Assembly (NCBI GenBank): GCA_029226975.1
Contig: JAQXZB010000108.1
Location: 1-34,406, forward strand
Origin: Clostridiales bacterium
GTDB taxonomy: Bacteria > Bacillota > Clostridia > UBA1381
DNA: 34,406 nucleotides
Direction of reading: 5' to 3'
Shown: positions 19,741-34,406 of the stretch, piece after piece
Position numbering within the stretch: position 1 is the stretch's first letter
How the letters are laid out: every line of letters begins with the position of its first letter
Made by a program: the position numbers and the translations under genes
Notes under the pieces: model-generated
Seen by the model: the letters and a program-made list of their open reading frames with translations, nothing else
What the model was told of the DNA's origin: nothing
Database searches by the model: none

Positions 19741-21063
19741 TTACTGAACATCAACCTTTTCGCCGGACAGGATTTTGTTCATTGTCCTTGCCGCACACAT
19801 CTTGCCGCACATGGAGCAGGTGTGCTTTTCCTCGGGAGGAAGCTCGTTATAGTATCTTTGGGGCTTCTCAGGCTCAATCGCGTATTGGAACATTTCCTCC
19901 CAGCATACGCGGCGGCGGGCGTCGCTCATTTTATTGTCTATATCCCTTGCGCCGGGTATGCCCTTGGCAATATCACCGGCGTGTGCCGCAATCTTGGCGG
20001 CTACGATGCCCTCTTTAACATCATCGGCGTTGGGCAGCCGCAAATGCTCCGCAGGAGTAACGTAGCACAGGAAATCCGCGCCGTTTGCCGCTGCAACTGC
20101 ACCGCCTATTGCGGAGGTTATGTGGTCATAGCCCGGTGCAATATCCGTTACCAGAGGACCTAACACATAAAAGGGTGCGTTATGGCAAAGCCGCTTTTCA
20201 AGCTTCATGTTTGCGGCAATTTCGTCTATTGCCATGTGACCGGGACCCTCGATCATTACCTGAACATTCTTTTCCCATGCGCGCTTTGTCAAAAGCCCTA
20301 ACTCCACAAGCTCGGTTATCTGTGCCGCGTCGGTGGAATCATGAGTTGAGCCGGGACGGCAGGCGTCGCCCAAGCTTATGGTAACATCGTATTTTGCCAG
20401 AATATCCAAAACCTCATCGTAAAATTCATACCAGGGATTTTCATTTCCCGTCATTTCCATCCATGCAAATATCAGTGAACCGCCTCTTGAAACTATGTTT
20501 GTAATGCGGCCGCCGTCCTTTTTTGCGGCTTTAAAGATTTCGGCAGTTCTGCGGTTTATTCCGGCATGAATTGTCATAAAATCCACGCCCTCCCGCGCGT
20601 GAGCCTCAATAACACTTAAAAATTCCTCGGCGGTAATATCTGCAAGCTCCTTGTCAAGATAGCCCACCGCATCATACATGGGCACAGTGCCTATCATCGC
20701 CGGACAGGTGTTTATAAGCTGCTGTCTGAAATCATGGGTTTTACCGTAGCAGCTTAAATCCATTATAGCCTCGGCGTTCATCTTAACAGCCATGTCAACC
20801 TTTGCCATTTCAAGGCTGTAGTCGGTGCAGTCCTTTGAAATGCCGAGATTTACGTTTATTTTGGTTTTAAGCCCCTCGCCGATACCCTCCGGCGAAAGAG
20901 CGGTGTGCATTTTATTTGCGGGTATTACAACCGTGCCGCGGGCAATTCTTTCCCGCAAAAGCTCAACGTCTATATCCTCCTTTGCCGAAACAATTTCCAT
21001 TTCCGGGGTTATGATGCCTTTTTTTGCGGCATCCATCTGCGTTGTATAAGTCATATACATCAT
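19741..21063 (-). CDS. thiC: Phosphomethylpyrimidine synthase ThiC
   Basis: A 440-aa radical-SAM-type enzyme that rearranges aminoimidazole ribotide into the HMP-phosphate pyrimidine of thiamine. Family landmarks are present throughout: [27 protein letters not shown]-like [46 protein letters not shown], and [21 protein letters not shown]. The cluster-binding Cys motif is near the C-terminus in [11 protein letters not shown], spaced C-x2-C-x3-C. It stands alone, without other thi genes, and is controlled by the TPP riboswitch directly upstream. The ATG at 21063 follows GAAAGGATG, giving AAAGGA as ribosome site. Confidence 0.95.
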
Positions 21064-21097: not shown

Positions 21098-21111
21098 TAA
21101 AAATCAAAATG

Positions 21112-21197
21112 TTTTCCTACGCCGGCATTATCCGAATCAGGTTACGGGTCGGAATTAACAATTCCCTCTCAGCCTGTCGCACAAGCTCCCCTTGTCA
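21112..21197 (-). promoter_or_regulatory. TPP riboswitch (THI element) upstream of thiC
   Basis: Read on the minus strand the aptamer core is GGGGAGC, GGCTGAGAGGG, GACCC, AACCTGATTCGGATAATG, then CCGGCGTAGGA, in the order of the conserved thi box. Binding of thiamine pyrophosphate is expected to favour the terminator that follows and switch thiC off. Confidence 0.96.
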
Positions 21198-21203
21198 ACA
21201 TAC

Positions 21204-25887: not shown

Positions 25888-25916
25888 ATTATACCACATT
25901 GCCGCGCTGCAGTCAA
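25888..25916 (-). promoter_or_regulatory. Promoter of the GTPase-NYN fusion gene
   Basis: On the minus strand TTGACT (25916-25911), 17 bases, TATAAT (25893-25888). The predicted 5' leader is only about 30 bases, with no room for an attenuator of the kind found before many tet(M) genes. Confidence 0.78.
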
Positions 25917-25985
25917 CAGCGGTGTTCACTTGAAATTCTTTCTTTATTTTTTATCAAAAATTATGTGTAATTTGCTGATAAATTA

Positions 25986-26014: not shown

Positions 26015-26048
26015 TAACATGACATATTTGAAAAAAAGAGGGATTGCC

Positions 26049-28202
26049 GTGGCTGATAAATACATAGCGCACAAAACTGAAGCGGGAGATGAACAAAGTC
26101 TTAAAACACATCTTGAAAACGTGGCACAGCTTGCCGAGGAATATGCGGTGGACGAATTTAAGGAATATGCCCGATTGTGCGGACTTATGCATGATCTGGG
26201 AAAGTATACGCAGGCGTTCCAAAATCGAATAAACGGGACAGGACCTCGTACGGAACACGCAAGATACGGAGCCCAGGAGCTGCATAAAAATAAGCTTAAT
26301 ACATACATACCCATGCTTGAATACTGCATTGCAGGGCATCATACGGGACTGTGCGACGGAGGAAGCAGAAGCGATTTGCCCGATACACCTACACTGCATG
26401 GGATTTTAAAGCGGGATACGGAGGATTATTCCGCCTTTCAAAATGAGATTTCTTATCAGCTTCCCGAAGATACAATAAAAAAAATGGTTATATGCGGCAA
26501 TGACCGGGAGGAGAGCATTGAACGCTATGCATTTTTGACAAGGTATATATACTCATGTCTTACAGATGCGGATTTTATCGATACCGAAAGCTTTTGCGCG
26601 CCGGATACAAAAAGGGGACTGCCCGGAGATTTTGCGGCGGCGTATGACGCGGTGTGCAGAAAGCTTGGGGCATTTGTACCCGAAACAGAGCTTCAAAAAG
26701 CCAGGAATAAGCTGCAGGAGCAGGTATATAAAAGTGTTGAGGAAAATAAGAGTATATATATTGTGGATATGCCTACCGGCAGTGGAAAAACTCTTTGCAG
26801 TATAAAGGCGGCGCTTAAACAGGCTTTGGACGAGGGAAAAAAGCGCATTATTTATGTTATACCCTATGTGAGCATAATCGAGCAGACCGCGGAGATTTTT
26901 CGTTCTGTTTTCGGTGATGTTCTGCCTGTGGTTGAGCACCATTCAAATTTTGATTTTGATGATAAGGATGTTAACGAGAACGAATCGGAAAGAGAAAAGC
27001 TGAAGCGAAGCTGTGAGAACTGGGACGCGCCGCTTATAGTGACCACAAATATACAGTTTTTTGAATCGCTGTATCATCACAAAAGCAGCAGATTAAGAAA
27101 GCTTCATAACCTGGCTCAAAGTGTAATTGTGTTTGATGAAATACATATGCTGCCCACGCAATATATCAAGCCTTGTATGCGGGCGATAGGCTATATAACA
27201 AGGTATCTGCACAGTACGGTGCTGCTGATGTCGGCAACCATGCCGGATTACGGGCATTTGCTTGAAAAATATGCCGACAAGGATGAGTGTGTATATGCGG
27301 TGAAAGATAAATCATGCTTTGACGCATTTAAAAAATGCCGCTACAGCTTTATCGGCGAGGTGTCGGCTGAAGGTCTTGCGGATAAGGCAATGCAGTGTAA
27401 AAATGCTCTTATAATTGTAAACAAGCGTGAAACGGTAAGACAGATTTATAATCTGTGCAAAGATGCTTGTGAGGTGTATCAACTGTCTACCTATATTACT
27501 CCCGAGCACCGCTCAAGGATTATCTCGGCAATTCGTGACCGTCTTAACAGAGGTGAGCGGATAATAGTTATATCAACCTCGCTTATTGAGGCGGGAGTGG
27601 ACTTGGATTTTGAAACGGTATTTCGTGAAAATGCGGGACTTGATAATATTATTCAGTCCGGCGGTCGCTGCAACCGGGAGGGCAGAGCAAAAACCGGTGA
27701 TGTGTTCGTGTTTGAAACGTCGGCTGTAACAAGAGAAATTCAGCTAAAGGCGAATATAACAAGAAGCCTGTTTAACGAATTTGAGGATATTACTTCACAG
27801 GAATGTGTGAGGGAATATTATGACAGACTTTTTGCGGTGTATGATGAGGAAATTGAAGAAAACAGCATTGCCAATCTTGCCGGAAAAAATATAAATGTAT
27901 ATGAAATACCATTTAGGCAATATTCGGAAAATTTCGGATTTATACAAAACGAAACCTGCGCTGTGGTAATACCCGGTAAAGAAAACCAAAATCTGCTTGA
28001 TGAGTTAAGCTTCGGCAAGCTTTCGGTTAAGCGTCGGCTTCAGAAATACTGCGCTTCGCTGCACCGATATGAGCTTGATGAGTTTATGAAAGTGGGACTT
28101 ATAAAGCAGCTTCCCGGAGGCGTGTATGTGCTTACAAACAGCGATTATTACGATGAGTATTCGGGTTTGGATATGCATAAGGAAATGAATTATTGTATTT
28201 AA
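26049..28202 (+). CDS. cas3: CRISPR-associated nuclease-helicase Cas3 (type I-C)
   Basis: A 717-aa fused HD-nuclease/DExH helicase that degrades DNA opened by Cascade. The HD domain is N-terminal: LMHDLGKYTQAF with His48-Asp49, EHARYGAQEL, and AGHHTGLCDGG. The helicase follows with MPTGSGKTL around residue 241, the DEIH box in VIVFDEIHMLP near 363, LLMSATMP (motif III), and motif VI in QSGGRCNREGRA. GTG 26049 is used as start because AGAGGGA lies 5 bases upstream and the promoter would begin transcription after the alternative ATG 26019. First gene of the operon; a small hairpin separates it from cas5c. Confidence 0.95.
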   Translation: MADKYIAHKTEAGDEQSLKTHLENVAQLAEEYAVDEFKEYARLCGLMHDLGKYTQAFQNRINGTGPRTEHARYGAQELHKNKLNTYIPMLEYCIAGHHTGLCDGGSRSDLPDTPTLHGILKRDTEDYSAFQNEISYQLPEDTIKKMVICGNDREESIERYAFLTRYIYSCLTDADFIDTESFCAPDTKRGLPGDFAAAYDAVCRKLGAFVPETELQKARNKLQEQVYKSVEENKSIYIVDMPTGSGKTLCSIKAALKQALDEGKKRIIYVIPYVSIIEQTAEIFRSVFGDVLPVVEHHSNFDFDDKDVNENESEREKLKRSCENWDAPLIVTTNIQFFESLYHHKSSRLRKLHNLAQSVIVFDEIHMLPTQYIKPCMRAIGYITRYLHSTVLLMSATMPDYGHLLEKYADKDECVYAVKDKSCFDAFKKCRYSFIGEVSAEGLADKAMQCKNALIIVNKRETVRQIYNLCKDACEVYQLSTYITPEHRSRIISAIRDRLNRGERIIVISTSLIEAGVDLDFETVFRENAGLDNIIQSGGRCNREGRAKTGDVFVFETSAVTREIQLKANITRSLFNEFEDITSQECVREYYDRLFAVYDEEIEENSIANLAGKNINVYEIPFRQYSENFGFIQNETCAVVIPGKENQNLLDELSFGKLSVKRRLQKYCASLHRYELDEFMKVGLIKQLPGGVYVLTNSDYYDEYSGLDMHKEMNYCI

Positions 28203-28204
28203 TA

Positions 28205-28219
28205 CGGGATACTATCCCG
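28205..28219 (+). other. Hairpin between cas3 stop and cas5c ribosome binding site
   Basis: CGGGAT-ACT-ATCCCG is a perfect 6-bp stem with a 3-base loop, starting 2 bases after the cas3 stop and ending just before AAGGAGGA of cas5c. It has no T-tract, so it is not a terminator. It may keep the ribosome site single-stranded or mark an RNA-processing point. Confidence 0.5.
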
Positions 28220-28234
28220 AGTAAGGAGGATAAA

Positions 28235-28957
28235 ATGAGTTATGGATTTAAAATAATGGTAAGCGGAGATTATGCTTGTTTTACGAATCCGGCGATGAAG
28301 GTTGAAAGGGTGAGCTATGACGTGCCCACACCGGGAGCGCTGGAGGGGCTTTTAAAAAGCATTTACTGGAAGCCTGCCATACGGTATGAGATTGATAAAA
28401 TCATAGTTTTTAATCCGATTGATTTTATCAATATACGCCGCAATGAGGTGACGGACAAGGTCAGCTTATCAAAGGTGAAAAAGCAGATGAAAACCAAAGT
28501 GGAGGAGGCGGACATATGTACTAAAGATACAATTATGCAGCGCGGCGGCATGGTTTTAAAAAATGTACTCTACGGAATTGAGTTTCATTTTGAGCTTACC
28601 GGAATAAGGAGCGAAAACGGTGACGAAAATCGGGAGAAGCATTATAATATTTTGTTAAGGCGTCTAAAGAACGGACAGTGCTTTCGTCAGCCGGTACTGG
28701 GCTGTCGCGAATTTTCGGTAAGAAGCATTGAACCGGTGGATGAATTTCCCATGGATAAAATATCACCGTCGCTTTTGGGTGACAGGGATTTGGGGTATAT
28801 GCTTTATCGAATGAATTTTAAGGATAAGGGCAGACCCAAAAACGATGACTGGGAGGAGAGAAAATTCTCGGACGATGCCGACGCTTCTTTTTACAGACCG
28901 CATATGATTGACGGTGTGATAGATGTAGAAAAATACAGGGGGACGGTAAAATGCTGA
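28235..28957 (+). CDS. cas5c: Cas5c (Cas5d), Cascade subunit and pre-crRNA endoribonuclease
   Basis: A 240-aa RAMP protein. In type I-C this subunit replaces Cas6: it cuts the repeat hairpin at its 3' base and stays on the 5' handle. The N-terminal RAMP strand (YGFKIMVSGDYACF) is followed by the Cas5 signature YDVPTPGALEGLLKSIYWKP; the Tyr of SIYWKP sits where the catalytic Tyr of characterised Cas5c lies, though I have not aligned it. A Gly-rich/basic stretch at IMQRGGMVLKNVLYGIE precedes the second half. ATG 28235 has AAGGAGGA at proper distance; an in-frame TTG at 28193 inside cas3 is not credible. The end overlaps cas8c by 7 bases. Confidence 0.94.
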   Translation: MSYGFKIMVSGDYACFTNPAMKVERVSYDVPTPGALEGLLKSIYWKPAIRYEIDKIIVFNPIDFINIRRNEVTDKVSLSKVKKQMKTKVEEADICTKDTIMQRGGMVLKNVLYGIEFHFELTGIRSENGDENREKHYNILLRRLKNGQCFRQPVLGCREFSVRSIEPVDEFPMDKISPSLLGDRDLGYMLYRMNFKDKGRPKNDDWEERKFSDDADASFYRPHMIDGVIDVEKYRGTVKC

Positions 28958-30729
28958 TAAATGCGCTTAATCAATATTATGATATGCTTTCCCGTGCCGG
29001 CAAGGTATGCCCCGAGGGCATTTCAAAACAGAAGGTCAGTCATATGATAATGCTTCGTCCGGACGGGAGCATAAGCAGTATTACGGATATACGAAGACAG
29101 TCAAAGCCTGATAAAAAAGGCAAAACAAAGCTTGAAATGCGAGAGATTGACTTGCCCGAAAGAACACAGAAGCCCGGAATAGATTTTAATATAATAGAAC
29201 ACAGACCGCTCTATATTTTCGGCCTGAATTACGATAAAAAAACAGGTGAGTTTTCGCCGGAGGATAAAACCATGAAGGCGAAAAAATCACATGAGTGCTT
29301 TGTAAAAGGAAACCTTGATTTTACCGAGGGTATGAGTTCTGAAATTGTAAAAGCTTACAGAAACTTTATAAGCCGCTGGAAGCCTGAGGAGGAAACCGAA
29401 AATAAGCATCTAAAACAGCTTGGCAAGGACTATGACGGAGGGTATTTCTGCTTTGCTCTTGACGGAAATACAAAATGCACGCTCCATGATATGGACGGCG
29501 AGATAATGAAAAAGGTTTTAAACAGCCCAAATACAGCCGCCGAGCCGGACGGAATATGTGCCGTAACGGGAGAATGGGACCAAATTGCCCGTATACATGA
29601 TAAGGTACAAGGGATTGCAGGAGGACAGGCTTCGGGCTGTTCCCTGGTATGCTTTAAGGGTACGGCGGTAGAGTCATACGGAAAAACACAGTCCTATAAC
29701 AGCTCAATATCTCAGTCAGTGATGAAACGATATACACAGGCGTTAAACATTTTGCTTAAGGACAGAACCCATAAAATGTACCTTGAGGATTTAACTGTTG
29801 TGTTCTGGGCAATGAGCGAGGATGACAGTGCGGAAACCGATATGTTTTCCATGCTTATGGAGGGGGATAAGGCGGACTCAGAGCAGACGGATAAAGCAAT
29901 CTTTAATGCAATGCGGGAGCTTGGGCAGGGAAGACAGGCGGATTTGGCGGCTCTTAATATTGACGAAAATGTCGAGTTTTACATTGCCGGGCTTGCTCCG
30001 AATAATTCAAGGATAGCGCAGAAGTTCGTATACCGCGACAAATTCGGGAAAATATTTGAAAATCTTGCAAGGCATCAGGCTGATATGCTTTTGGAGGACA
30101 CAAAGGCACAGATACCGCTGTGGCGTATATGCAGTGAGCTTAAGTCGCCCAAAAGCAATAAGGAAAAAACACCGCCGCCGCTTCTGTCGGCAATGTTTAC
30201 GGCAATACTTAACGGAACAAGATACCCGGATGCCTTGCTCGAAACTGCAGTGAGACGTGTAAAAACGGATAAATTTGTAAATTATGTTCGTGCGGGAATA
30301 ATAAAGGCCTGCATAAACAGAAAAGTAAGAATAAATAATGAAACGGAGGAAATAAAAATGGCGTTGGACAAGGAAAATATCAATCAGGCGTATTTGTGCG
30401 GAAGATTGTTTGCAGTGTTGGAGCGAGTGCAGAAAAATGCGGCAAAGACCAAGCTTGACCGCACAATAAAGGACTCATACTTTGCCTCGGCATGCGCAAA
30501 GCCGGCAACCGTATTTCCAAAGCTTATGGTGCTTGCTCAGTATCATCTGGGAAATGATGATTTTGCGGTAGCGGACAATAAGCTTATGGGAGAAATAACG
30601 GACAAGCTATGCTGTGAGTTCCCACAGACGCTGCCCTTAAATGAACAGGGCAGATTTATCCTGGGATATTATCACCAAAATCAAGATTTTTACAAAAAAT
30701 CTTCTGATAAAACCGAGATTTCGGAGTAA
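28951..30729 (+). CDS. cas8c: Cas8c (Csd1), large Cascade subunit
   Basis: A 592-aa type I-C large subunit that recognises the PAM and unwinds target DNA. Csd1 landmarks: the N-terminal MLINALNQYYDMLSR, GKTQSYNSSISQSVMKRYT in the middle, FYIAGLAPNNSRIAQKF around residue 340, and the terminal RFILGYYHQNQDFYK. ATG 28951 overlaps the cas5c stop and has AGGGGGA upstream, indicating translational coupling. The last 123 codons carry an internal start for a separate small subunit. Confidence 0.95.
   Translation: MLINALNQYYDMLSRAGKVCPEGISKQKVSHMIMLRPDGSISSITDIRRQSKPDKKGKTKLEMREIDLPERTQKPGIDFNIIEHRPLYIFGLNYDKKTGEFSPEDKTMKAKKSHECFVKGNLDFTEGMSSEIVKAYRNFISRWKPEEETENKHLKQLGKDYDGGYFCFALDGNTKCTLHDMDGEIMKKVLNSPNTAAEPDGICAVTGEWDQIARIHDKVQGIAGGQASGCSLVCFKGTAVESYGKTQSYNSSISQSVMKRYTQALNILLKDRTHKMYLEDLTVVFWAMSEDDSAETDMFSMLMEGDKADSEQTDKAIFNAMRELGQGRQADLAALNIDENVEFYIAGLAPNNSRIAQKFVYRDKFGKIFENLARHQADMLLEDTKAQIPLWRICSELKSPKSNKEKTPPPLLSAMFTAILNGTRYPDALLETAVRRVKTDKFVNYVRAGIIKACINRKVRINNETEEIKMALDKENINQAYLCGRLFAVLERVQKNAAKTKLDRTIKDSYFASACAKPATVFPKLMVLAQYHLGNDDFAVADNKLMGEITDKLCCEFPQTLPLNEQGRFILGYYHQNQDFYKKSSDKTEISE
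30358..30729 (+). CDS. cas11c: Cas11c small subunit, translated from an internal start in cas8c
   Basis: Within cas8c, in the same frame, ATG 30358 is preceded by GGAGGA at 30345-30350, 7 bases away. It gives a 123-aa helical protein beginning MALDKENINQAYLCGRLFAV and ending in the Cas8c C-terminus. The sequence around this start is identical for 17 bases (from GGAGGAAA to ATGG) to the start region of cas7c, which is strong evidence of real initiation. Internal translation of Cas11 from cas8 is established for type I-C, I-B and I-D. The product forms the inner belly of the Cascade complex with Cas7. It is normally missed by gene callers because it lies inside another gene in the same frame. 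Confidence 0.87.
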   Translation: MALDKENINQAYLCGRLFAVLERVQKNAAKTKLDRTIKDSYFASACAKPATVFPKLMVLAQYHLGNDDFAVADNKLMGEITDKLCCEFPQTLPLNEQGRFILGYYHQNQDFYKKSSDKTEISE

Positions 30730-30772: not shown

Positions 30773-31636
30773 ATGGAAGCTATTAACAACAAGTATGAAT
30801 TTACGGTACTCTTCGATGTGGAGAACGGAAACCCCAACGGGGATCCGGATGCGGGGAATATGCCCAGAGTGGATCCGGAAACCTCATACGGGATAATAAC
30901 GGATGTGTGCATAAAAAGAAAAATACGCAATTACGTAGAGCTGTGTATGGAGGGTAAGGAGGGCTATAATATTTTAATAAAGCCGGATAAATCCCTTAAT
31001 TCAAAGTTTACCGAGGCATATAAAGAAAGCAGCTTAAAAACGGGACAAAAGGGAAAAAATCCCGATGATGTCAAGGCTGCAAGAGATTATATGTGCGAAA
31101 ATTATTTTGATGTAAGGACATTCGGTGCCGTAATGAGCACCGGAAACGATCCCTGCGGAATTGTAAGAGGTCCGGTGCAGATTAACTTTGCAAGAAGCAT
31201 AGACCCGGTATATATTCAGGATATTTCCATTACACGTCAGGCGCGCACAACGGAGGACAGAATGGAAACGGGCGAGACGGAAATGGGAAGAAAGAGCATT
31301 ATTCCGTATGCGCTCTACCGCGTTGACGGATATGTTTCGGCAGCCCTTGCCCAAAAGGTGACCGGCTTTAGCGAAGATGATATAGAAATTTTGTGGAAAG
31401 CAATTATAAATATGTTCGAGCATGACAGAAGCGCCGCAAGGGGCAAAATGTGTGTAAGAAAGCTTATTGTGTTTAAGCACGAAAGCCCTCTGGGCAATGC
31501 ACCGTCACATACGCTGTTTGACAAGATAAAGGTTTCAAAAAAAGACGGAGTGGTATCTGCACGCTCATACGAAGATTATGAGGTAAGCATTGATGCCCGG
31601 ATGCCGGACGGAGTTTACATAGAGGAAAAGCTGTAA
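30773..31636 (+). CDS. cas7c: Cas7c (Csd2), Cascade backbone subunit
   Basis: A 287-aa RAMP protein that polymerises along the crRNA. Signatures are NKYEFTVLFDVENGNPNGDP at the N-terminus, YFDVRTFGAVMSTG in the middle with the FGAV motif, and GPVQINFARSIDPV followed by SITRQA. ATG 30773 is taken because AAAGGAGG lies 8 bases upstream; longer in-frame extensions run back into cas8c. It lies 43 bases after cas8c, the largest gap within the effector genes. The stop codon overlaps the cas4 start by one base. Confidence 0.95.
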   Translation: MEAINNKYEFTVLFDVENGNPNGDPDAGNMPRVDPETSYGIITDVCIKRKIRNYVELCMEGKEGYNILIKPDKSLNSKFTEAYKESSLKTGQKGKNPDDVKAARDYMCENYFDVRTFGAVMSTGNDPCGIVRGPVQINFARSIDPVYIQDISITRQARTTEDRMETGETEMGRKSIIPYALYRVDGYVSAALAQKVTGFSEDDIEILWKAIINMFEHDRSAARGKMCVRKLIVFKHESPLGNAPSHTLFDKIKVSKKDGVVSARSYEDYEVSIDARMPDGVYIEEKL

Positions 31637-32283
31637 TGATAAACATACGCTCAATACAGCATTATATGTATTGTCCTCGGAGATTTGGTCTGCTTGAGAT
31701 AAATAAGGACTGGGCGGAAAATGTGTTTGTTGTTAAAGCAAATCTCATGCATGAGAGAGTACATTCGGGAAGTCACGATTACAGAAGCGCCAAAAAAATT
31801 GAAATGAGCTCGGTAGCGGTTTACAATGATGAGCTTGATTTATATGGTGTAACCGACTGCATTGAATTTGAAAAGTCCTCAGCCGGAAATGAAATTGAGG
31901 GATTGGAGGGAAAATATAAAGTTCATATAATTGAATATAAGCCCAAGCAGCCAATGTCGGGTGAAATACGGGAAACCGACGCTATTCAGGTTTTTGCGCA
32001 AATGCTGTGTGCAGATTATGTGTGGAACTGCAAAAGTGACGGTTATGTGTATTATGCGGATACAAGAAAAAGAGTAAAGCTGCCGCTTCGGGAGGAGTTT
32101 GACAGATATTATGCGCTGCTTAAAGAGCTTATGCAAAACATGAAGAATTGTATGGAAAGCGGCGTAATTCCTCCGCGAGTAAAGGGACAAAATTGCAGCG
32201 GGTGCTCCGTAAAGGATGTATGCATGCCGGCAAATAAGAAATATGAGGTTAAAAAGCTTGTAATGAGCGAGGAGGACATATGA
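31636..32283 (+). CDS. cas4: Cas4, Fe-S exonuclease for spacer acquisition
   Basis: A 215-aa RecB-like nuclease with a 4Fe-4S cluster; it trims prespacers and checks the PAM together with Cas1-Cas2. Cys13 in YMYCPRRF and Cys187, Cys190 and Cys196 in NCSGCSVKDVC are the cluster ligands. The nuclease core shows GVTDCIEF (Asp), HIIEYKPKQP (Glu-x-Lys) and the QVFAQMLCADY helix. ATG 31636 overlaps the cas7c stop (TAATG) and the end overlaps cas1 through ATGA, so translation is coupled throughout the adaptation genes. Confidence 0.95.
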   Translation: MINIRSIQHYMYCPRRFGLLEINKDWAENVFVVKANLMHERVHSGSHDYRSAKKIEMSSVAVYNDELDLYGVTDCIEFEKSSAGNEIEGLEGKYKVHIIEYKPKQPMSGEIRETDAIQVFAQMLCADYVWNCKSDGYVYYADTRKRVKLPLREEFDRYYALLKELMQNMKNCMESGVIPPRVKGQNCSGCSVKDVCMPANKKYEVKKLVMSEEDI

Positions 32284-33302
32284 GAAAGTTGTTAAATACT
32301 TTGTATGTTACCGATGAAAACATATATCTCACACTGGACGGAGAAAACATTGTGTGCAAGGCGGATAACGAGGTGAAGCTCAGACTGCCGTTTTCAAATC
32401 TTGAGGGGATTTTTTGCTTTAGCTATTTGGGCTGTTCTCCGGCGCTTATGGGTAAATGTGCGCAGTACGGTATTCCTATAAGCTTTATTTCGCCGTCGGG
32501 ACAGTTTCTTGCCAGGGTGCAGGGGAAAAGCAGAGGAAATATTCTTTTGAGAAAAAGACAGTTTGAGTTGTTTAAAGAACCGCCGAGTGTGCTTTTGCAA
32601 AATACTGTGGCGGCAAAGCTTGCAAATACCCGAAGCGTCATAAAGCGTACATTGAAGGATTATCCTCAAACAGATGAGGACGGCGAGCTAAGCGGTTGTA
32701 TAAAAAAGCTTACCGATTATATTGAACAGGTATATAATGAAGAAAATCCAACTGCAATACTCGGTATAGAGGGGAGCGGGGCAAAAGCGTATTTTGATAT
32801 ATTTAACCGGCTTATTTTAAAGCAAAAAGAGGATTTTTGCTTCGTCATGCGAAGCAAAAGACCGCCGCTTGACAGAGTGAATGCGGTTTTGTCATTTATG
32901 TATACCATTCTTACGCTGGATTATGCTGCCGCACTTGAAAGTGTCGGATTAGACAGCTATATGGGTTTTTATCATACACCGAGACCGGGCAGAGAATCTC
33001 TTGCCTGTGATTTGGTTGAGGAGGCAAGATGTATAGCGGAAAGATTTGTGCTGACTGCGATTAACCTAAAAATACTTCAGGCAGATGACTTCGAAACTCA
33101 AATAAGCGGGGCGGTTTTTCTGAATAAGGACGGAAAAAAGAAAATACTCACAAAATGGCAGGAAAAGAAACGCAGTGATATTATGCATCCGTATCTTAAG
33201 CAGAAAATCCAGCTGGGACTTTTGCCGTATGTGCAAAGTACACTCCTTGCAAAGTACATAAGGGGAGAGCTTGATGAATATCCCTGTTACATAGTGAGGT
33301 GA
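32280..33302 (+). CDS. cas1: Cas1, CRISPR integrase
   Basis: A 340-aa metal-dependent integrase that inserts spacers at the leader end. The metal ligands are visible: Glu164 in GIEGSGAKAYF, His232 in GFYHTPRPGRESLACD and Asp244 at the end of that segment. The N-terminal beta domain begins LLNTLYVTDENIYLTLDGEN, as in type I-C Cas1. Starts inside the cas4 stop (ATGA). Ends 5 bases before the cas2 ATG. Confidence 0.96.
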   Translation: MRKLLNTLYVTDENIYLTLDGENIVCKADNEVKLRLPFSNLEGIFCFSYLGCSPALMGKCAQYGIPISFISPSGQFLARVQGKSRGNILLRKRQFELFKEPPSVLLQNTVAAKLANTRSVIKRTLKDYPQTDEDGELSGCIKKLTDYIEQVYNEENPTAILGIEGSGAKAYFDIFNRLILKQKEDFCFVMRSKRPPLDRVNAVLSFMYTILTLDYAAALESVGLDSYMGFYHTPRPGRESLACDLVEEARCIAERFVLTAINLKILQADDFETQISGAVFLNKDGKKKILTKWQEKKRSDIMHPYLKQKIQLGLLPYVQSTLLAKYIRGELDEYPCYIVR

Positions 33303-33307
33303 TCGAT

Positions 33308-33598
33308 ATGATGACTTTGGTAAGTTATGATGTGTCAACCGTAGATGCAGCCGGACGAAAACGCTTGCACAAGGTTGCAAAGGAATGTGTAAACTACGGT
33401 CAGAGGGTTCAGAATTCGGTATTTGAGGTTGATGTGGATTATTCGACATTTTTGAAGCTAAAGGATAGGCTGATTAAAATTATTGATAAGGATAAGGACA
33501 GCCTAAGGTTTTATTATTTGGGCAACAATTGGAAGAACAAGATTGAGCATATAGGTGCAAAGGAGACATATGATCCTGAGGGCGCGCTTATATTGTAG
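33308..33598 (+). CDS. cas2: Cas2, adaptation complex subunit
   Basis: A 96-aa ferredoxin-fold protein that bridges two Cas1 dimers. VSYDVSTVDAAGRKRLHKVA with Asp8 after the first strand, then NYGQRVQNSVFEVDVD, is typical of type I-C Cas2. ATG 33308 is chosen because GTGAGG lies 8 bases upstream; ATG 33311 is possible, and GTG 33299 overlaps the cas1 stop but would sit on the ribosome site. Last gene of the cas operon; the leader follows at once. Confidence 0.95.
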   Translation: MMTLVSYDVSTVDAAGRKRLHKVAKECVNYGQRVQNSVFEVDVDYSTFLKLKDRLIKIIDKDKDSLRFYYLGNNWKNKIEHIGAKETYDPEGALIL

Positions 33599-33735
33599 CA
33601 GCGAACCCATGATAAAAGTGATTTTCCGGGGAGGTTCGCCGCAAAAAGAAGGGTATTTTGCCGTTTTAGCGGCAAAAATACAGTAATAGTCCGCTTCATG
33701 TGGGTGCAAACGAGATATTTTATACAATATCTAGG
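33599..33735 (+). promoter_or_regulatory. CRISPR leader
   Basis: The 137 bases between cas2 and the first repeat contain no gene. Three inverted repeats are seen: GCGAACC (33601-33607) with GGTTCGC (33633-33639), TTTTGCCG (33656-33663) with CGGCAAAA (33670-33677), and AGATATT (33713-33719) with AATATCT (33726-33732), the last ending 3 bases before the first repeat. CATGTGGGTGC at 33697 resembles the middle of the repeat. The repeat orientation (ATTGAAA-like end distal) and cas2 position make this the acquisition end. I cannot assign a promoter for the array with confidence. Confidence 0.85.
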
Positions 33736-34406
33736 GTCGCACCCCGCATGGGGTGCGTGAGTTGAAATCTGTATAGAACGGTTGTCAATAGTTCCGACAG
33801 CAGTCGCACCCCGCATGGGGTGCGTGAGTTGAAATTGATATTTGAATATCACTTGTGACCCCTCATAAAGTCGCACCCCGCATGGGGTGCGTGAGTTGAA
33901 ATATCCTCAAACTCAGCGCCGCTTTTGGTGGTATAGAGTCGCACCCCGCATGGGGTGCGTGAGTTGAAATGCTTGACCGCTTCAACCTCATCAATAAACC
34001 CCGTGTCGCACCCCGCATGGGGTGCGTGAGTTGAAATATTGCGTCTGCAAGTCCGTCAAATACGCCGGGGTGTCGCACCCCGCATGGGGTGCGTGAGTTG
34101 AAATCCGTCATAAATGTAGTCTATTATTAGTGACTGATGTCGCACCCCGCATGGGGTGCGTGAGTTGAAATTTTCGAGGGTATTGTAAAAAAGCTTGAGC
34201 CGGTAAGTCGCACCCCGCATGGGGTGCGTGAGTTGAAATCCATTACATGAACAAGGGAGAGCTGGAAGCGTAGTCGCACCCCGCATGGGGTGAGAGAGTT
34301 GAAATAATTATGCCGTAAAAATGCAATATATTCCACAAGTCGCACCCCGCATGGGGTGCGTGAGTTGAAATTAAAACACTTATCGGCGAATAATACAGCA
34401 GTTTGT
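33736..34406 (+). CRISPR. Type I-C CRISPR array, 10 repeats, right end cut
   Basis: Ten 33-base repeats start at 33736, 33803, 33870, 33938, 34005, 34072, 34139, 34207, 34273 and 34339. Each begins GTCGCACCCC, has the loop GCAT, the return arm GGGGTGCG, and ends TGAGTTGAAAT. CGCACCCC and GGGGTGCG form the 8-bp hairpin cut by Cas5c, leaving the 11-base handle. Spacers are 33-35 bases and all nine complete ones are different. Nine repeats are identical; the ninth has two changes. The tenth spacer reaches the window edge after 35 bases, so the array probably continues. Perfect repeats and the intact adaptation genes suggest an active locus. Confidence 0.98.
34273..34305 (+). repeat. Variant ninth CRISPR repeat
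   Basis: This copy differs from the other nine at position 21 (C to A, base 34293) and position 23 (T to A, base 34295), reading GGGGTGAGAGAGTTGAAAT at its end. The first change breaks the penultimate pair at the base of the hairpin; the second alters the first base of the 11-base 5' handle. A perfect repeat follows it, so this is not a normal end-of-array decay. Confidence 0.95.

Follow-up and report, generated by a model that had tools for sequence, protein, structure and literature searches.

The type I-C CRISPR array at the end of this Clostridiales contig raises the question of whether a single internal repeat, altered on both sides of its expected cleavage site, was shaped by selection on crRNA processing or simply carries the scar of a mutation. 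Across the window (the whole stretch of DNA analysed, 34,406 nucleotides, which is the entire contig C108), a 33-nt repeat occurs in ten copies. Nine of these are identical (GTCGCACCCCGCATGGGGTGCGTGAGTTGAAAT), whereas repeat 9 differs from the other copies by C to A at position 21 and T to A at position 23. Shuffling the window 100 times yielded no such repeat with up to three mismatches allowed, so the array is not a product of chance. The reading that we prefer, with a rough probability of 0.57, is that repeat 9 carries a private mutation in an older repeat of a well-kept I-C array, with at most a local effect.

Array layout and continuation

The features of the array in the window are as follows:

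33736..34371, + strand: type I-C CRISPR array with 10 repeats; contig C108 ends after spacer 10
33599..33735, + strand: presumed leader, between cas2 and repeat 1, assigned by position only
34273..34305, + strand: variant repeat 9 (C21A, position 34293; T23A, position 34295)
between 34294 and 34295, + strand: expected Cas5c cut in repeat 9, on the basis of the published 11-nt handle

A second contig of the genome (C32) carries an array end with the same repeat, comprised of a 15-base partial repeat and four full repeats that are all perfect, followed by non-array DNA. This contig is probably the continuation of the C108 array, given that the repeat is common to both, and repeats between the two pieces may be missing. 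The two substitutions recorded in the initial annotation are present, and repeat 9 is the sole variant among the 14 full repeats (10 in the window and four on C32), or among 15 when all repeats readable at positions 21 and 23 are counted. The annotation had also proposed searching for the variant past base 34406; it is absent from C32, with all four full repeats of that array end, including the last repeat of the array, being perfect.

Two riboswitches were recorded in passing. A cobalamin riboswitch (Rfam RF00174, L009:481-684) lies soon after the last repeat of the C32 array, and an ordinary TPP riboswitch occupies 21098-21202 on the minus strand of the window, just before an open reading frame (19741-21063) that we take, by eye, to be thiC.

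cas genes and the expected cleavage site

The array lies directly 3' of seven type I-C cas genes, each identified by a family-model match:

26019..28202, + strand: cas3
28193..28957, + strand: cas5c, the expected pre-crRNA nuclease, with a likely start at 28235
28951..30729, + strand: cas8c
30773..31636, + strand: cas7
31636..32283, + strand: cas4
32280..33302, + strand: cas1
33299..33598, + strand: cas2

Each of the seven proteins matches the Cas family expected at its place in the gene order, and the matches include subtype-c models (Cas3c, Cas5c, Cas8c, Cas7c, Cas4c, Cas1c, Cas2c); this bears out the earlier assignment to type I-C. The genes adjoin one another, and coverage of the family models is near complete.

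According to reviews, type I-C crRNAs carry an 11-nt handle, which sets the junction after G22; the two changes flank this expected cut, as had been proposed. In the type I-C Cascade structure report (PMC7684278), the handle is described as clamped by Cas5c and Cas7.7 from U1 onward, and these conserved contacts are taken to suggest that Cascade assembly depends critically on the handle's 5' end. The structural reading in the initial annotation holds in that C21A removes the G4-C21 stem pair, a pair preserved across the related arrays examined, and in that T23A alters the first handle base, but it overlooked the new U2-A23 pair that T23A makes available.

The pairing rules of the repeat family make clear how far repeat 9 departs from its relatives. 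Every one of 23 distinct 33-nt consensuses from related arrays forms pair 4-21, which occurs as five types (GC, AU, CG, UA and GU), so that pairing at this position seems to be selected. Over the whole stem, 98.9% of cells are paired, and changes on both sides are seen at five of the eight pairs. Pair 2-23 is formed in none of the 23 consensuses; both changes therefore depart from the normal shape of the repeat. Base 23 is T in 36 of 37 array pieces; the exception, with C, is an 89-repeat array of a putative system, and the first handle base can thus vary in nature. That I-C type array (L095, from G447) carries C rather than T as the first handle base throughout and contains three repeat haplotypes arranged in blocks.

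Predicted folds of the variant repeat

Predicted fold energy rises from -16.6 kcal/mol for the consensus repeat to -12.9 kcal/mol for the variant. In the predicted fold of the variant, G4 is mismatched with A21, and this mismatch is flanked by C3-G22 followed by the newly formed U2-A23. These folds, and the pair probabilities below, are predictions for RNA without protein. In context, the probability of pair 4-21 drops from 0.907-0.999 in the nine perfect copies to 0 in the variant. For pair 3-22 in the context of repeat 9, the consensus gives a probability of 0.975, which C21A on its own lowers to 0.255 and which stands at 0.822 when both changes are present; the corresponding values for pair 5-20 are 0.994, 0.672 and 0.964. 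The new U2-A23 pair is thus predicted to partly re-close the stem opened by C21A, placing the expected cut inside a helix, and cleavage at repeat 9 may be altered. By a measure of stem re-closure picked after the pattern had been seen, second changes that follow C21A restore both pairs as well as T23A does in only 3 of 96 cases in context (4 of 96 for the repeat alone). Pair 3-22 is itself weakly predicted in the native contexts of two perfect repeats (0.167 in repeat 2 and 0.609 in repeat 4), and in these predictions pair 4-21 is the clearer contrast between the perfect repeats and repeat 9.

Private repeat variants in related arrays

Arrays of relatives were gathered through Cas1 (17 loci, listed as uncultured Monoglobus and Clostridia, with 14 of the 17 from 'Lapin' samples) and through the repeat pattern. 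The survey used 16 of the 17 Cas1-found loci and 18 of the 20 pattern-found stretches (L089 being a duplicate and L099 lacking an array); the pattern-found arrays are among the matches listed and are biased towards arrays within two to three mismatches of the pattern. Rows for L012 and L089 (duplicates of L049 and L052) and for repeat 18 of L037 (more than four changes) were left out, as were the first and last repeat of each piece and groups of fewer than three repeats, such as L051.

With the window included, private changes were found in 21 of 1251 internal repeats (37 array pieces, 1325 repeats), which is an upper count because some variants share one change with neighbouring repeats (L041, L101) or resemble a repeat-boundary effect (repeat 16 of L098). 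One-off internal repeat changes are therefore uncommon but ordinary. Excluding the window repeat, there was no enrichment at the cut site, with 3 of 27 changes on the four cut-flanking positions against approximately 3.3 expected; the three cases are C21T in repeat 8 of L088, G22A in repeat 38 of L087 and T23C in the second array of L041. Changes that have been copied on look different, occupying blocks of repeats in L044, L087 and L095. In L044 and L087, the blocks, defined by loop changes that their repeats have in common, alternate along the array; recombination or invasion by a second repeat version could give such a pattern.

Repeat 9 resembles the other private type I-C substitutions in being a single internal copy that was not copied on, and some of these fall at the same spot. 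It is unlike them in having two changes within three bases and a new 2-23 pair, and it breaks pair 4-21 fully, whereas C21T in L088 retains a G-U pair. With one mismatch allowed, the variant pattern was found in one of 398 genomes of a phylum sample, the window's own; this test of spread is limited by the I-C repeat pattern itself, which matches a minority of genomes (at least 36 of 391 in a class sample).

Degenerate terminal (leader-distal) repeats are a second point of comparison. Substitutions in 3'-end repeats were counted in 10,425 of 39,378 arrays in the CRISPRidentify report (PMC7913763), and they share with repeat 9 substitutions that could weaken processing. Repeat 9 differs in its internal position, and the repeat that closes the array on C32 is perfect. 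Terminal repeat decay is ruled out by position, with the variant being the ninth of ten repeats in the window and four full repeats plus a partial one lying on C32.

Probable origin and possible effect of the variant

The private-mutation reading builds on the sequence itself, its uniqueness in this genome, the pairing rules and the predicted folds. Both changes probably arose in one event, since independent mutations would seldom fall two bases from each other; a templated slip converting TGCGTGAG to TGAGAGAG could be the origin. The event would date from a time when repeat 9 no longer lay next to the leader, or would have struck the freshly filled-in copy as the repeat was duplicated; either way, the variant would for that reason never have been copied on. 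Repeats 1-8, nearer to the presumed leader, are all perfect, so the variant was absent from the leader-side template during those acquisitions; copying on at acquisition, which the initial annotation had entertained, is ruled out.

As for its effect, the G4-A21 mismatch and the new U2-A23 pair may slow or shift Cas5c cutting between G22 and A23. The consequence would be local: crRNA of spacer 9 would be scarcer and would start with a changed handle base, part of the crRNA of spacer 8 would have an extended 3' end, and the other spacers would be unaffected. Any action of the variant is most likely confined to crRNA 9 and to the 3' end of crRNA 8, and selection on the variant would be weak or absent. 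Against any effect stand the weakness of pair 3-22 in perfect repeats 2 and 4 and the private changes that other arrays carry at the same spot. Two observations could instead mean selection, namely the location of the variant between two spacers that match the same genome and the membership of T23A among the few re-closing second changes.

Possible sequencing or assembly error

The strongest competitor, though an unlikely one, is that the changes are a sequencing or assembly error. Repeat 9 is 101-133 bases away from the point at which this draft contig broke off, within a repeat region, and two changes in three bases are unusual. An error of this kind is at odds with the other 13 full repeats being letter-perfect, with normal spacing and with the unchanged length of the repeat.

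Self-matching spacers and possible escape from autoimmunity

Searching the whole array and the C32 end, four of 14 spacers were found to match the organism's own genome elsewhere. Three of these are in the window and the fourth is spacer 3 of C32, the last one on that contig, which matches exactly with a CCTC flank and has perfect repeats on either side. The three spacers in the window are:

34172..34206, + strand: spacer 7, exact match to contig C23 of the same genome (from 7956), 5' flank CCTT, both flanking repeats perfect
34240..34272, + strand: spacer 8, 33/33 match to C23:2325-2357, 5' flank CCTC
34306..34338, + strand: spacer 9, 31/33 match to C123:4156-4188 in an integrase gene, 5' flank CCTT

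Outside the array, the next best own-genome matches were at chance level (E of 0.14 or worse). The 5' flank of all four self-protospacers is CCTY, as compared with NTTC or TTC for the published type I-C PAM. C23 (L139) encodes terminase, portal, head and tail proteins, and C123 (L140) looks like a prophage edge because it combines a RodA-like gene, a tRNA-Ala with an integrase beside it, and a repressor. Both spacers flanking repeat 9 thus match prophage-like DNA of the same genome, a feature that the initial annotation did not contain. In a draft genome, the phage and the array could come from different cells of one population. Spacers 8 and 9 had no exact matches in viral contigs, and the search of spacers against phage records returned one chance-level match (24 bases, E = 8).

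These matches suggest an account in which the variant was selected for weakening the crRNAs of spacers 8 and 9 and thereby avoiding autoimmunity. Mutated repeats beside self-targeting spacers are given as one way of avoiding autoimmunity in a paper citing Stern 2010, and repeat 9 is like that route in that both of its neighbours match the genome, with similar flanks. The near-complete family-model coverage of the seven cas genes also fits, as does a case in another genome: in G361, the sole private variant repeat (repeat 8, C21T, at the cut site) adjoins spacer 8, the weakest self-match of that array.

The local picture differs from that route in an important respect, in that the two further self-matching spacers adjoin perfect repeats. 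Escape would be incomplete because spacer 7 and the C32 spacer, both matching exactly, keep perfect repeats; moreover, with repeat 9 uncut, spacer 8 keeps its own normal handle. Of the 12 repeats whose spacers are known on both sides, adjacency alone would place two between a pair of self-matching spacers (hand count). Two related arrays extend the comparison, both chosen because they hold private variants near the cut. In G361, three of eight spacers match the own genome (97%, 95% and 89% identity), and in G345, five of 39 spacers have exact own-genome matches and one more matches over 28 bases. The two better self-matches of G361 and most self-matching spacers of G345 adjoin repeats without private changes. 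Over the three arrays, a small and hand-counted sample, three of six private variants touch a self-matching spacer against approximately 2.0 expected, giving no clear general link between variant repeats and self-matching spacers. Escape is ranked below the simple scar since it would be partial and since the three of six so little exceeds the expected number; we regard it as improbable, slightly more so than an error.

As a separate observation on G345, the five exactly matching spacers of its array (G345:C6, L087) all match one 20-kb stretch of its own genome (G345:C3:103197-123141).

Possible compensation, tuned cleavage and double-length crRNA

The predicted folds invite a two-step history in which C21A opened the stem base and T23A was then kept for re-closing it through U2-A23. 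The recovery of pairs 3-22 and 5-20 and the small share of second changes that restore both are in keeping with such a history, although the measure was chosen after the pattern was seen. Closure of pair 3-22 may also matter little, since perfect repeats 2 and 4 have it only weakly; one spacer would have to confer an unusually strong benefit for selection to retain a second change in a lone repeat, and one double event is simpler. We consider compensation quite unlikely, well behind escape.

A still more speculative extension would make repeat 9 a tuned, slow-cutting junction, in which the stem base would be opened by one change and half closed again by the other, burying the cut in the helix and giving low-dose crRNAs of two adjacent anti-prophage spacers; we hold the chance of this to be slim. 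The least probable proposal is a functional double-length crRNA, with repeat 9 uncut and spacers 8 and 9 in one RNA of approximately 132 nt with its own role: the predicted burial of the cut inside a helix would favor it, but the variant shows no conservation in the phylum sample, and we know of no role for a double-length crRNA.

Mini-arrays upstream of cas3 in relatives

Four related loci (L037:3550-3640, L046:2042-2130, L048:3540-3630 and L050:3551-3640) contain diverged mini-arrays upstream of cas3, each comprised of a promoter-like sequence, a diverged I-C repeat, a 21-nt spacer and a decayed second repeat. In all four, the spacer matches the ribosome-binding region of cas3 on the opposite strand with a CCTC flank. 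The match covers 15 of the 15 positions from 1-17 that are not multiples of six, with mismatches at 6, 12, 18 and the last three bases; this scoring rule was set after a first look at the data. Spacer and target co-vary in L037, L046 and L048, matching within each genome and falling to 10-13 of 15 across genomes, and none of 2000 shuffles reached the score in each of these three loci. The mini-array looks like a cas-regulating (CreR-like) RNA in type I-C, judging by its sequence. A 2026 review names cas-regulating RNAs in types I-B, I-E and V-A, and no type I-C case was found in the literature searched, as far as its available text goes. Upstream of cas3 in the window there is no such spacer-target match (best 11 of 15); a hairpin at 25902-25936 ending in CTTGAAAT lies upstream of cas3 and is possibly a remnant of a mini-array repeat, with no matching target found nearby.

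Implications

The occurrence of four self-matching spacers among 14 beside apparently complete cas genes suggests that an anti-CRISPR is present or that the system is repressed or silent. If repeat 9 were a tuned slow-cutting junction, a lysogen could retain its prophage without giving up a functioning type I-C system. As a single scar, the variant matters little in itself. It does offer a naturally occurring test of how specific Cas5c is, with a repeat that has lost a strictly kept pair (4-21) and gained, at the cut, one unseen in related consensuses.
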